DNA of 64,000 bases from contig CALMPI010000009.1 in the NCBI GenBank assembly GCA_937872175.1, positions 62,001 to 126,000 of the forward strand, given 5' to 3'. The DNA comes from an uncultured Flavobacteriales bacterium. GTDB lineage: Bacteria; Bacteroidota; Bacteroidia; Flavobacteriales_F; PHOS-HE28. Positions 36,699-46,655 of the stretch are shown in pieces. Numbering within the stretch: the first letter of the stretch is position 1; each line of letters begins with the position of its first letter. The notes under the pieces were generated by a model. The model made no database searches. It was not told where the DNA came from and saw nothing but the letters and a program-made list of their open reading frames with translations. Made by a program: the position numbers and the translations under genes.

Positions 36699-37355
36699 AT
36701 GTCCATGCCCGTCCTTAGCTCCACCACTCACCGGCGCTCACGTGCTGGCCGCCTCGTTCTTCGTTCTTTCTTCTTCCTCCTTCTTCCTTTTTCCTTCACC
36801 CCTTCGGCCAAGGCCCAGCCTCTGCCCCAGACCACGCTGGACACGGTGCGCACCTACCGCAGCCTGGAGCGCGCCCTGGCCGAGCCCATGCAGGTCCACC
36901 GCCTGGACCTCAGCAAGCAGAAGCTCAAGGCCGTGCCCGAGGAGCTGCGGCGGTTGCCCAACCTCAACGCCCTGGACCTGGGCCGCAACAAGCTGAAGGA
37001 GCTGCCCCCGTGGTTCACCGACCTGGCCAACCTGCAGGAGCTCACCCTGAGCGGCAACAAGCTGGTGGACTTTCCCGAGGTGATCTGCGGGCTGCGCCAT
37101 CTGAAGCGCCTGGACATGAGCCGCAACGCGCTCACCGGTCTGCCTACCTGCCTGGGGCGCCTCAAGGAGCTCACCAGCCTCGACCTGTGGAGCAATGACC
37201 TGGCCACCTTCCCCGAGGAGCTGGAAGGGCTGGAGGCCCTGCGCTACGTGGACCTGCGGGTGATCCAGTTCAGCCCCAAGGAGATGGAGCGGATCGCCGA
37301 GCTGTGGCCGCGCGCCAAGATCCAGTTCAGCGCGCCGTGTAACTGCGGCATGTGA
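36699..37355 (+). CDS. Secreted leucine-rich repeat protein
   Basis: A 218-residue protein. A long leader whose hydrophobic core FFFLLLPFSF is encoded by a 34-bp all-pyrimidine run ends near SAKAQ. It is followed by about five leucine-rich repeats (LNALDLGRNKLKELPPWF, LQELTLSGNKLVDFP, LKRLDMSRNALTGLP, LTSLDLWSNDLATFP) and a tail containing CNCGM. It probably acts in the periplasm or at the cell surface as a binding scaffold. There is no T9SS tail. The first ATG is used; MPVLSS two codons in is also possible. Confidence 0.8.
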   Translation: MSMPVLSSTTHRRSRAGRLVLRSFFFLLLPFSFTPSAKAQPLPQTTLDTVRTYRSLERALAEPMQVHRLDLSKQKLKAVPEELRRLPNLNALDLGRNKLKELPPWFTDLANLQELTLSGNKLVDFPEVICGLRHLKRLDMSRNALTGLPTCLGRLKELTSLDLWSNDLATFPEELEGLEALRYVDLRVIQFSPKEMERIAELWPRAKIQFSAPCNCGM

Positions 37356-42805: not shown

Positions 42806-43387
42806 ATGGAGCTCGTGCGCATCGCCATCGTGGGGCCCGAGAGCAGCGGCAAGACGACGCTGTGTGAAGCGTTGATGCACCATTTCTTCGCCGGTCACGT
42901 GACCGAAGGGGCCCGCGAATACCTCGAGGAGCTCGGCCGACCTTATACTGAGGACGATGTGCTGGAGATGGCGCGCGGCCAGGCACAGATGCATCAGGAC
43001 GCACCGTTGTTCGCAGCGGAGCACTGGGAAGCGACGGGCGGTGCCGATGGCCTGGGTACCGCGCCGGTGGAACCTGTCTTCTTCGACACCGACACGGTGA
43101 ACTTCGTCATCTGGTCGCGCGAGAAGTACGGGCGCGTGCATCCGGCGATCGAACAGCTGGTGGGCGAGGTGCACTACGACTGGCGTCTGCTGTGCCGACC
43201 GGACATCCCCTGGGAACCCGACCCCCTGCGTGAGAACCCGCACGACCGCGACCGGCTGTTCGAGGTGTGGATGAACGAGTTGCGGTCGAGAGGTCTGCCC
43301 TTCACGGTGATCGAGGGCGATCGCGCACAGCGGATGGATGTGGCCACCCTGGTGGTGGATGATCTGCTGCGGCGCAGGCGGCGTTGA
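42806..43387 (+). CDS. NadR-type ribosylnicotinamide kinase domain protein
   Basis: A 193-residue P-loop protein. Walker A is IVGPESSGKTTLCEALMHHF; GAREYLEELGRPYTEDDVLEMARGQ and FFDTDTVNFVIWSREKYG match the C-terminal kinase domain of NadR. The nucleotidyltransferase and HTH domains of full-length NadR are absent, so this is a stand-alone kinase form. Expected role: phosphorylating imported nicotinamide riboside to NMN, in line with pnuC at 37369. The ATG at 42806 follows a TTACTTTC box by 7 bp. Other AAA_28 proteins of unknown substrate share this fold. Confidence 0.8.
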   Translation: MELVRIAIVGPESSGKTTLCEALMHHFFAGHVTEGAREYLEELGRPYTEDDVLEMARGQAQMHQDAPLFAAEHWEATGGADGLGTAPVEPVFFDTDTVNFVIWSREKYGRVHPAIEQLVGEVHYDWRLLCRPDIPWEPDPLRENPHDRDRLFEVWMNELRSRGLPFTVIEGDRAQRMDVATLVVDDLLRRRRR

Positions 43388-43392
43388 CCCGG

Positions 43393-43400
43393 TATCTTCG
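43393..43400 (+). promoter_or_regulatory. Possible -7 element of the MNT/HI0074 pair
   Basis: TATCTTCG ends 7 bp before the ATG at 43408 and differs from TAnnTTTG by one base. Confidence 0.4.
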
Positions 43401-43407
43401 ACCGCGC

Positions 43408-43803
43408 ATGGCTTCCGGCAAGCTCGACCTCGGTCCCCTGCGCCGCTCGCTCAGCGCGCTGCGGAAGGTGACCCGCATGGACCTGGAGGACGATGTGGTC
43501 CGCGATGCGGCCGTCAAGCGGTTCGAGTTCACGTACGAGATGTCGTGGAAGATGATGCGCCGACACCTGCAATGGGCCGGTGCGCAGGACCTGGACAACG
43601 TGCCCCGTCGTGAGCTGTTCCGCCTTGCCGCGCGCGCCTCGCTCATCGACGACCCGACCCGGTGGTTCGCCTATCACGAGGCCCGCAACCTCACCAGCCA
43701 CACCTACGATGAGGTCAGCGCACGCAAGGTGACCGCGTTGCTCGGCGCCTTCGTGAAGGATACGGCCACGCTCATGCGGAGGCTGAAGGAGCACCATGCT
43801 TGA
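43408..43803 (+). CDS. HI0074/HepT-like nucleotidyltransferase substrate-binding protein
   Basis: A 131-residue all-helical protein with the NTase substrate-binding signature: AVKRFEFTYEMSWKMMRRHL, RELFRLAARASLIDD, WFAYHEARNLTSHTYDE. It pairs with the nucleotidyltransferase encoded by the next gene, which overlaps it by 8 bp. In related HepT-MntA modules the helical partner is an RNase toxin with an Rx4-6H motif that the transferase AMPylates. Here the candidate region is RNLTSH (R-x4-H), which matches. The ATG at 43408 is preferred over a TTG at 43384 that overlaps the previous stop. Confidence 0.82.
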   Translation: MASGKLDLGPLRRSLSALRKVTRMDLEDDVVRDAAVKRFEFTYEMSWKMMRRHLQWAGAQDLDNVPRRELFRLAARASLIDDPTRWFAYHEARNLTSHTYDEVSARKVTALLGAFVKDTATLMRRLKEHHA

Positions 43804-44086
43804 TCTGCATCCCGATCATCGCGCCGAGGTGCGGCGCATCCTGGCCGAGCGAGTGCCGGGTGCGAAAGCCTGGGCCTTCGGTTCGCGCGTGAAGGGCACG
43901 GCGCGGCGCTTCAGCGACCTCGACCTGGCCATCGACGCCGGGTCCGAACTGGATCTGGCCACCCTCGCCGATCTGCGCCATGCCTTCCAGGAGAGCGACC
44001 TGCCGATGAGCGTGGACCTGCTGGACCTGCGGGCGGTGCGACCATCGTTCAGGCGGCGCGTCGGGCAGGAGCAGGTGCCCATCTGA
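43796..44086 (+). CDS. MNT/MntA-like minimal nucleotidyltransferase
   Basis: A 96-residue protein with the minimal nucleotidyltransferase motif GS-x10-DxD seen directly as GSRVKGTARRFSDLDLAID. The rest includes DLPMSVDLLDLRAVRPSFR, supplying the third acidic residue. In the known MntA-HepT system the transferase neutralises its helical partner by adding AMP groups. The 8-bp gene overlap and toxin-first order fit such a pair. A general tRNA or protein nucleotidyltransferase role cannot be excluded. Confidence 0.85.
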   Translation: MLDLHPDHRAEVRRILAERVPGAKAWAFGSRVKGTARRFSDLDLAIDAGSELDLATLADLRHAFQESDLPMSVDLLDLRAVRPSFRRRVGQEQVPI

Positions 44087-44117
44087 ACACTTGGACCAAG
44101 GGTCGCGCGTACGACCT

Positions 44118-44125
44118 TACCTTCG
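44118..44125 (+). promoter_or_regulatory. Probable -7 element of the TPP riboswitch transcript
   Basis: TACCTTCG, one base from TAnnTTTG, ends about 8 bp before the first base of the riboswitch fold. That is the right distance for the transcript to begin with the aptamer. Confidence 0.55.
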
Positions 44126-44132
44126 CCCCGTC

Positions 44133-44212
44133 GTGCAACGGGGTGCCCCGCCTTCGGGCGGGTGCTGAGATCAGACCCGATGAACCTGCGCAGGTAATGC
44201 TGCGAAGGGATC
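44133..44212 (+). ncRNA. TPP riboswitch (THI element)
   Basis: The conserved aptamer segments are all present in order: CGGGGTGCC, a GC hairpin (CCGCC-TTCG-GGCGG), GCTGAGA, ACCCGATGAACCTG, CAGGTAATGC and GCGAAGGGA. These are the core of the thiamin pyrophosphate aptamer. It lies in the leader of the TonB-dependent receptor gene and ends about 50 bp before its ATG. Known behaviour: TPP binding reduces expression of the downstream gene. Confidence 0.95.
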
Positions 44213-44213
44213 C

Positions 44214-44264
44214 AGCCCGAGAAGGGGCTTCTCCGCGCCACGACACGCATACCCGGAGAAGCCC
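44214..44264 (+). promoter_or_regulatory. Riboswitch expression platform: start-codon-sequestering hairpin
   Basis: GGGCTTCTCC at 44225-44234 is the exact reverse complement of GGAGAAGCCC at 44255-44264, which directly precedes the ATG at 44265. This 10-bp hairpin would hide the only purine-rich ribosome-binding site. AGCCC at 44214-44218 can instead pair with GGGCT at 44225-44229 and free it. The layout suggests control of translation, not termination, since there is no T-tract. Confidence 0.7.
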
Positions 44265-46655
44265 ATGCACCTCGTCCGCACCCTTGTCCTCAGTGCCGCG
44301 TTGGCCCCGCTGATCGCATCGGCCCAGGCCACCCTGCGCGGCACCCTCACCGATGACCAAGGCCAGCCGCTCCCGGGAGCCACCCTGGTGGTCGGTGCCG
44401 ACCAACGATTCGGAATGAGCGCCGATGCACAGGGCCGTTACGTGCTCACCGGCCTGCGCGCAGGACCGGAGCGCTTCCGGTTCGCCCACCTCGGCTTCGC
44501 ATCGGTGGACACGGTGCTCACCTTGGGCGAAGGGGAGCAGCAGCTGGACCTGATGCTGCGACCGCAGGCCCGCCTGCTGCGCAGTGCCGAAGTGGTGGCG
44601 ATACGCGCCGGTGAGCGCGCCCCGGTGGCCCAGAGCACGCTGACGCGCGACGAGATCCAGCGCATCAACACCGGTGTGGACCTGCCCATCCTGCTCGACC
44701 TGCAGCCCAGCGTGGTCACCACCACGGACGCGGGCACGGGCATCGGCTACACCGGCCTGCGCGTGCGCGGCACCGACCCCACGCGCATCAACGTCACCGT
44801 CAATGGCGTGCCCATCAACGACGCCGAAAGCCAGGCCGTGTTCTGGGTGAACATGCCCGACCTGGCCAGCAGCGCGCAGGACGTGCAGCTGCAGCGCGGC
44901 GTGGGCACCAGCACCAACGGACCCGGCGCGTTCGGGGCCAGCATCAACCTGCGCACCACCACCGTGAGCGAACGGCCCTTCGGCGAGGTCAGCGCCTTCG
45001 GCGGATCCTTCAACACGCGACGCTTCATGGCCCGCGCCGGCACGGGCACCTCCGCCGCAGGCCTCAGCCTCGACGCGCGCCTCAGCCACATCGCCAGCGA
45101 CGGCTACATCGATCGCGCCGCCGCCGACCTCAAGAGCTACTTCGTGCAGGCTGCCTGGGTCGGGAAGAAGCGCAGCCTTCGCTTCATCACCTTCGGCGGG
45201 CGTGAGCTCACCTACCAGGCCTGGGCCGGCGTGCCGCGCGAGGTCATCGATACGAACCGGACCTATAACCCCTACACGTACGAGAACGAGGTGGACGACT
45301 ACCGCCAGACCCACTATCAGCTGCTCTTCGATCAGCAGCTCGGTGCGCGCACCACCATCAACCTCACCGGCTTCCGCGTGGATGGTCGCGGCTTCTTCGA
45401 GAGCTTCGAGGACGAGGCGGACCTCGGCTTCTTCGGCATCGGCGACCCGGTGATCGGCGGCGACACGCTCACCAACGGCGACCTGGTGCAACGGCGCTGG
45501 CTGGACAACACGCTGCTGGGCATCAACGCGTCGCTGACGCACAGCTTCCGCGCACATCGCCTCATCGTGGGCGGCAGTTACGCCGACTACCGCGGCGACC
45601 ACTTCGGCGAGGTCATCTGGGCGCGCTTCGCCGGCAACACCGACATCGGGGACCGCTACTACAGCAACGATGCGCGCAAGCGCGATGCGAACGCCTTCGC
45701 GAAGCTCATCTACAGCCTCGGCGACCGCGTGCAGCTGCATGGCGATGTGCAGCTGCGCCAGGTGAACTACGACTTTCTCGGCTTCGACGACGAGCTGGAC
45801 AACGTGACGCAGCGCGCCGCCTTCACCTTCTTCAACCCGAAGGCCGGGGTGGACTGGCGGGTGCATGAGGGCGGACGGTTGTATGCCAGCGCGGCCATCA
45901 CCCACCGTGAGCCCAACCGCGACGACTTCACCGAGACCACCCCCGAGAGCCGCCCCACGCACGAGAAGCTCGTCGACACCGAAGCGGGCTACGAGCGCCG
46001 CAGCGGCCGCATGGCCATCGGCCTGAACGCCTATTACATGGACTACACCGACCAGCTGGTGCTCACCGGCGAATTGAACGATGTGGGCGCCGCACTGCGC
46101 ACCAACGTGCCGCGGAGCTACCGCGCCGGGCTGGAGCTCACCTGGGCCGCACAACCCCTTCGCTGGCTCCTGTGGAAGGGCAACGCCACCTGGAGCCGCA
46201 ACCGCATCCTCGATCTTGTGGAATACGTGGATGACTGGGACACGGGTGGCCAGCAGGCCGTGCGCTACACCGAGACGCCCATCGCCTTCAGCCCGGAGTG
46301 GATCGCGGGCAGCGAACTCGCCTTCACGCTGTGGAACAAGGCCGACCGCGGCCGGGCGGACATCGCGTGGGTGACCAAGTTCGTGGGTGAACAGTTCCTG
46401 GACAACAGCGGCAGCGAGGCCCGCAAGCTCGATGCCTTCGTGGTGAACGACGTGCGCGTCAACGCATCCCTGCACACGCTCTTCGGCATCCCGATGGTGG
46501 AGGTGAACCTCACCGTGCGCAACGTGCTCAACGAGGTGTACGAGAGCAACGGCTGGAGCTACAGCTTCATCGAGGGGGGCGCGCGCCGCGAGCTGGTCGG
46601 TCTCTTTCCACAGGCCCCGATCCACGTGCTGGGCGGGGTGACGGTGCGGTGGTGA
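44265..46655 (+). CDS. TonB-dependent outer-membrane receptor under TPP control (probable thiamin uptake)
   Basis: A 796-residue receptor with a signal peptide ending IASAQ. A carboxypeptidase-regulatory-like beta domain spans about 22-100 (LRGTLTDDQGQPLPGATLVV ... RYVLTGLRAGPERFRFAHLG). The plug domain is at about 110-230 (LTRDEIQRINTGVDLPILLD, GYTGLRVRGTDPTRINVTVN, GVGTSTNGPGAFGASINLRT). A 22-strand-type barrel follows, ending in the aromatic Trp of GGVTVRW. Its leader carries a TPP riboswitch. In Bacteroidota, TPP-regulated receptors (OMR1-type) have been predicted to take up thiamin. No thiamin transporter or kinase follows directly, so it is a single-gene unit. Confidence 0.92.
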   Translation: MHLVRTLVLSAALAPLIASAQATLRGTLTDDQGQPLPGATLVVGADQRFGMSADAQGRYVLTGLRAGPERFRFAHLGFASVDTVLTLGEGEQQLDLMLRPQARLLRSAEVVAIRAGERAPVAQSTLTRDEIQRINTGVDLPILLDLQPSVVTTTDAGTGIGYTGLRVRGTDPTRINVTVNGVPINDAESQAVFWVNMPDLASSAQDVQLQRGVGTSTNGPGAFGASINLRTTTVSERPFGEVSAFGGSFNTRRFMARAGTGTSAAGLSLDARLSHIASDGYIDRAAADLKSYFVQAAWVGKKRSLRFITFGGRELTYQAWAGVPREVIDTNRTYNPYTYENEVDDYRQTHYQLLFDQQLGARTTINLTGFRVDGRGFFESFEDEADLGFFGIGDPVIGGDTLTNGDLVQRRWLDNTLLGINASLTHSFRAHRLIVGGSYADYRGDHFGEVIWARFAGNTDIGDRYYSNDARKRDANAFAKLIYSLGDRVQLHGDVQLRQVNYDFLGFDDELDNVTQRAAFTFFNPKAGVDWRVHEGGRLYASAAITHREPNRDDFTETTPESRPTHEKLVDTEAGYERRSGRMAIGLNAYYMDYTDQLVLTGELNDVGAALRTNVPRSYRAGLELTWAAQPLRWLLWKGNATWSRNRILDLVEYVDDWDTGGQQAVRYTETPIAFSPEWIAGSELAFTLWNKADRGRADIAWVTKFVGEQFLDNSGSEARKLDAFVVNDVRVNASLHTLFGIPMVEVNLTVRNVLNEVYESNGWSYSFIEGGARRELVGLFPQAPIHVLGGVTVRW

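Follow-up and report, generated by a model that had tools for sequence, protein, structure and literature searches.

The 64,000-nucleotide stretch of DNA analysed here (the window) carries, in front of an outer-membrane receptor gene, what is probably a translational TPP riboswitch of the OFF type, in which a displaced P1 clamps the start-codon hairpin. We rather favour the view that it stands for a subtype of TPP riboswitch in which a pseudoknot, formed by the 5' end of the transcript and the loop of the start-codon hairpin, takes the place of the classical P1. The ligand would then clamp the expression platform from outside, in a lineage with ribosomes that make little use of SD sequences, and the subtype would have been hidden by the Rfam cut-off. 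The features concerned are listed in Table 1.

Table 1. Features of the riboswitch locus, in window coordinates.
Feature	Position	Strand	Basis or remark
Promoter -7 box TACCTTCG, Bacteroidota type TAnnTTTG	44118..44125	+	Puts the predicted transcript start near 44130
Displaced P1, 5' strand GUCGUG, predicted RNA 5' end	44130..44135	+	Pairs with 44239-44244; own-versus-foreign test, compensatory changes
TPP aptamer core: P2, P3, P4, P5; without P3a and without local P1	44138..44211	+	RF00059, 37.4 bits, E 9.7e-6
Linker hairpin, 44214-44218 with 44225-44229	44214..44229	+	Hairpin at the same place in nearly all 37 leaders
Start-codon stem, 5' arm	44225..44235	+	11-bp perfect pairing
Displaced P1, 3' strand CACGAC, in the loop of the start-codon hairpin	44239..44244	+	Covaries with 44130-44135
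Third loop of the proposed pseudoknot	44245..44253	+	4-10 nt in relatives, 42% A, 32% C
Start-codon stem, 3' arm, contains GGAGAAG, ends at ATG	44254..44264	+	11-bp perfect pairing
TonB-dependent outer-membrane receptor, 796 aa, probable thiamin receptor	44265..46655	+	Pfam plug and barrel domains; substrate inferred from context

A TPP aptamer below the Rfam threshold

The score of the aptamer against RF00059 (37.4 bits; the E-value refers to a cmscan over 601 bases) lies below the Rfam gathering score of 54.3, and a default Rfam scan therefore reports nothing. The gathering threshold is a convention and not a biological feature, and the low score is likely caused by the missing local P1 together with the short arms. 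As the original prediction had claimed, a TPP aptamer is indeed there: GGGGUGC, CUGAGA, ACCC, GAACCUG, UAAUGC and AAGGGA are all in place, and with them the conserved ligand-binding core of RF00059 (CUGAGA, GAACC, UAAUGC and AGGGA, carried by P2-P5). TPP is the presumed ligand of the RNA. The element is the sole RF00059 match in the 4.3-Mb genome. No cobalamin family match was found in the window, which hence lacks the aptamer and the L5-L13 contact of a cobalamin riboswitch (RF00174).

A search of the genus covered 45 species, and searches at the family and order levels gave the identical 45. According to the named receptor matches, the members of the genus are uncultured Bacteroidota, for the most part labelled as Flavobacteriales MAGs. 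Thirty-seven of the species contain one such TPP element each, all scoring under the Rfam cut-off (30.9-48.3 bits), and the aptamer core is kept across 29 aligned species. For comparison, leaders were divided into segments with P2, the end at AGGGA, the hairpin and the start codon as landmarks; the hairpins of L006 and L021 were delimited by hand, while L009, which has no clear hairpin, was left out of the segment tests.

The hairpin at the start codon

The perfect 10-bp hairpin ending at the ATG that had been proposed for this leader turned out to be slightly longer. A script check confirmed that 44225-44234 (GGGCTTCTCC) pairs with 44255-44264 (GGAGAAGCCC), and G44235-C44254 extends the stem to 11 bp; the base that follows it is the A of the ATG at 44265. 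Not one of 3000 dinucleotide-preserving shuffles of 44211-44264 had a stem of at least 10 bp ending at the last base, and 0.03% had one anywhere. The stems of many relatives are shorter (6-8 bp), and a perfect stem of at least 6 bp ending at most 6 nt from the ATG is found in 34 of the 37 related leaders versus 6% in shuffles. Moreover, the two stem arms, B and B', pair better with their own partner than with foreign ones (p<5e-5). The region 44050-44400 contains no terminator-like site, in agreement with the original prediction. In folding calculations, the 11-bp stem of the window looks closed with or without TPP, so that equilibrium folding does not account for the ON state.

The same hairpin was also proposed to bury GGAGAAG, and this sequence does lie inside the 3' arm; its role as a ribosome site is doubtful. 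An SD-like motif precedes only 3 of 40 window genes (a rough count, gene starts having been called by script), and the ribosomes of Bacteroidia reportedly do not recognise SD sequences, a weakly structured start being decisive instead (PMC9976891). The 3' tail of the 16S rRNA reads GGAACAUCUCCUU in 8 genomes of the genus including that of the window (G000:C35:259-280), and the anti-SD core is therefore UCUCC instead of the usual CCUCC. GGAG is nevertheless nearly invariant across the leaders. It is safe to state that the stem blocks the start region, and this is more likely to occur through structure than through a hidden SD.

A probable displaced P1

In all 37 species, a TAnnTTYG box precedes P2 by 19-23 nt. 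Given this conserved -7 box, the transcript would begin near 44130 with GUCGUGCAAC, which would leave just this strand before P2. In a canonical TPP switch, the 5' strand of P1 pairs just after AGGGA. Within the genus, the 5' strand binds the 12 nt that follow AGGGA no more strongly in own than in foreign combinations (-2.50 versus -3.14 kcal/mol, p=0.9994), and the P1 that in RF00059 typically closes the aptamer from its immediate flanks is missing; the partner of the 5' strand is found in the hairpin loop instead. Duplex energies of the 5' strand average -6.55 kcal/mol with the own hairpin loop and -4.71 kcal/mol with foreign loops (p<5e-5), a signal that persists when each receptor cluster is represented by a single sequence, down to 20 clusters (p<0.0005). 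The linker and B', tried as partners of the 5' strand, gave no species-specific pairing in the genus.

The helix is also marked by compensatory changes. Pair 4 is seen as G-C, U-A, A-U, C-G and U-G, i.e., in five types (p=0.003), and pair 5 gives p=0.013. Eleven double changes that keep the pairing were counted on the receptor tree, ten of them at positions 4-5, compared to 2.5 with shuffled partners (p=0.003). Where the window has GUCGUG/CACGAC, the sister species L011 has GUCAUC/GAUGAC; further examples are GUCG/CGAC in L029 versus GUCC/GGAC in L006, and AUCG/CGAU in L008. MAFFT places the loop strand 1-2 columns off, and covariation in the pseudoknot was therefore evaluated with our own scripts in place of RNAalifold or pair counting; the loop strand was anchored on GAC, so that helix positions 1-3 do not constitute an independent test.

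The pairing is not uniform within the genus. In the clade of L026, L030 and L034-L037, the 5' strand pairs better with GGAGGA itself, and in L027 and L028 the pairing between 5' strand and loop is almost absent. Receptor leaders outside the genus possess a local P1 (p=0.003), and the displacement thus looks derived. In 40 outgroup leaders from elsewhere in Bacteroidota no clear signal of a displaced P1 was obtained, in what is a weak test, impaired by a few empty strings. Six Balneolia leaders (L060, L062, L078, L079, L108 and L115) have a clear local P1 (AAGGUU/AACCUU) and, apart from it, a CCUCC...GGAGG hairpin close to the start codon, an arrangement that contrasts with the displaced P1.

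Geometry and proposed mechanism

Where the loop is the best partner of the 5' strand, the distance between the end of the stem's 5' arm and the first base of the loop strand is -1 to +2 nt. The two helices are both conserved and lie flush, end to end, a geometry compatible with an H-type pseudoknot; folding itself was limited to nested structures. An H-type pseudoknot requires flush helices and a third loop that is short and unstructured, and the geometry thus speaks for a fold in which displaced P1 and start-codon stem would coexist. It is unlikely that the pseudoknot serves as the ligand pocket, since a complete TPP aptamer core is present; the pseudoknot switches SAM-II and preQ1 are therefore taken as analogues in working principle, not as a class to which the window RNA belongs.

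The proposed mechanism can be outlined as follows. The RNA would begin with GUCGUG just before P2, and this strand would pair with CACGAC in the hairpin loop and not with the 3' flank of the aptamer. Joined end to end, the displaced P1 and the hairpin stem would form an H-type pseudoknot enclosing the aptamer. By holding the base of the aptamer closed, TPP would stabilise the displaced P1 and thereby clamp the hairpin, which would keep ribosomes from loading at the start codon of the gene for the probable thiamin receptor. Without TPP the clamp would be lost and a ribosome could open the hairpin, although the opening of an 11-bp stem would then have to rely on the order of folding, on the linker hairpin or on the ribosome. 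TPP dependence, OFF polarity, and control of translation rather than of RNA decay are inferred. The OMthi transcript of B. thetaiotaomicron hardly responds to thiamin and its mode of control has been called uncertain (PMC5613172); the near-absence of a response at the transcript level fits control after transcription, i.e., a translational one.

Alternative readings

AGCCC at 44214-44218 can pair with GGGCU at 44225-44229, and in the window the latter bases are shared with the start-codon stem. The original prediction took the resulting linker hairpin for an anti-sequester under the control of the aptamer's 3' side. On this model it would open the start-codon stem by strand exchange, identical copies of AGCCC at 44214-44218 and 44260-44264 competing for GGGCU. 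Both pairings are real, the linker hairpin is conserved, and in transcripts of increasing length with a constrained aptamer it arises before the displaced P1, which in turn precedes the start-codon stem. We nevertheless consider this model quite improbable. In most of the 37 species the linker hairpin stands entirely 5' of the start-codon stem or at most meets its edge; the two overlap by 4-5 nt only in L001, L029 and L031-L033 and by about 3 nt in L018 and L024, substantial overlap being restricted to the small clade of the window itself. When the hairpin is imposed on the window RNA with a constrained aptamer, the ensemble energy changes from -64.8 to -60.7 kcal/mol, a cost of about 4 kcal/mol, and even then GGAGA is largely paired. 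The predicted 5-bp pairing thus exists and is conserved, but opening of the start-codon hairpin by it is not borne out. Control of this pairing by the aptamer is likewise not supported, since the aptamer, whose 3' strand ends at 44210, shares no base with 44214-44218 and there is no local P1 to compete with it. This comes close to an aptamer 3' strand that does not compete with the anti-sequester, the outcome that had been named in advance as speaking against the idea. As a general anti-sequester the linker hairpin was accordingly rejected, its overlap with the stem being confined to a small clade and the hairpin being energetically weak. It may be a folding intermediate or a spacer, and in the clade of the window it may tune the outer stem.

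Displaced P1 and start-codon stem could also be incompatible, in which case P1 would free the start codon and TPP would act as an ON signal. In nested, pseudoknot-free folds the start-codon stem beats the displaced P1 by about 3 kcal/mol, so that P1 plus linker hairpin make up a closed alternative only that far above the stem, and one that forms first in growing transcripts. However, the two helices hardly share bases, they abut flush, and the third loop is long enough to bridge them; in addition, ON control of a gene for thiamin uptake would run counter to the way in which TPP switches usually act on transport genes. Such an ON switch is therefore judged unlikely. A different objection is that the complementarity between 5' strand and loop might reflect chance or shared ancestry in an ordinary TPP switch with some other platform. 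GUC/GAC hardly varies, the species are related, and by our own rough estimate a 10-nt strand and an 18-nt loop will form six perfect pairs by chance in about 1-2% of single sequences. Against this stand the permutation at the level of receptor clusters and the ten double compensatory changes at positions 4-5, while local P1, linker and B' give no such signal, which makes an origin by chance or ancestry highly improbable.

The receptor and its genomic context

The open reading frame behind the leader encodes a TonB-dependent receptor with plug and barrel domains, as expected from the earlier assignment to an outer-membrane receptor. Its homologues occur across Bacteroidota and Balneolia, and TPP aptamers are found upstream of most of them; the gene following the window's aptamer thus appears to be thiamin-related, a substrate assignment based on context. 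In five leaders of a single clade (L030, L034, L035, L036 and L037), the receptor N-terminus is enlarged directly after the start codon by additional sequence in which LPQGL/LHQGL-like motifs recur; a repeat element may have entered the signal-peptide region there.

None of 44 species of the genus yielded thiC in a search that was positive for 13 of 14 control genomes. Uptake should therefore matter, and the genus probably depends on imported thiamin or thiamin precursors. About 6 kb upstream of the receptor, the window holds a gene for a PnuC/PnuT-like transporter (PF04973; 37369-37947, + strand), the product of which is a probable inner-membrane thiamin transporter; no RF00059 match precedes it. 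Directly 5' of this gene lies one for a short leucine-rich-repeat protein (36699-37355, + strand). A nucleotidyltransferase pair of the HepT/MntA-like type, consisting of an HI0074-type substrate-binding subunit and an MntA-like Polbeta protein (43384-44086, + strand), ends about 30 bp upstream of the promoter box of the riboswitch.

Relation to known riboswitches and significance

With the TPP riboswitches of family RF00059, such as the translational thiM switch of E. coli and the OMthi leaders of Bacteroides, the window element has in common the aptamer core, a hairpin downstream in the start region and the control of thiamin uptake; a TPP riboswitch on OMthi is known in Bacteroides (PMC5613172). 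It differs from these examples in having no local P1, the 5' strand of P1 pairing instead with the loop of the start-codon hairpin. A recent covariation study that modelled TPP riboswitch plus expression platform from terminator-type examples supports a rearrangement through shared nucleotides (PMC13273304).

Closer parallels come from other classes. Ligand-dependent contacts with the loop of an expression hairpin (cobalamin) and H-type pseudoknots that hide the ribosome site (SAM-II, preQ1) are known (PMC10907184, PMC2258182). In the L5-L13 kissing loop of the cobalamin riboswitch, the aptamer grips the loop of the ribosome-site hairpin and the ligand stabilises the docking (PMC10907184), but ligand and aptamer are different and two kissing loops are involved, whereas in the window RNA a free 5' end would meet a loop. 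The H-type pseudoknots of SAM-II, preQ1-I and preQ1-II resemble the proposed fold in their two end-to-end helices, the 3' one adjoining the start codon (PMC10907184); there, however, the pseudoknot is the ligand pocket, while here it would enclose a separate TPP aptamer. The Guanidine-IV riboswitch also has a ligand-promoted pseudoknot that uses the terminal loop of the expression-platform hairpin (PMC10907184), yet this hairpin is a terminator and is destabilised by the pseudoknot, whereas that of the window covers the start codon and is probably stabilised. A description of a pseudoknotted TPP platform was not found in the open-access literature. A grip of the 5' end on the loop of a start-codon hairpin thus appears to be an arrangement described for other riboswitch classes, with none found for the TPP class.

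The action of TPP riboswitches in Bacteroidetes has been described as uncertain (PMC5613172). The displaced P1 provides a concrete model for them, with a named helix that is open to compensatory mutation, in a genus whose TPP switches the default threshold of Rfam misses. If the model is true, a TPP aptamer can drive a docking or pseudoknot platform of the kind known until now from cobalamin, SAM-II and preQ1 switches, and translation would be controlled via structure alone where SD sequences are hardly used.
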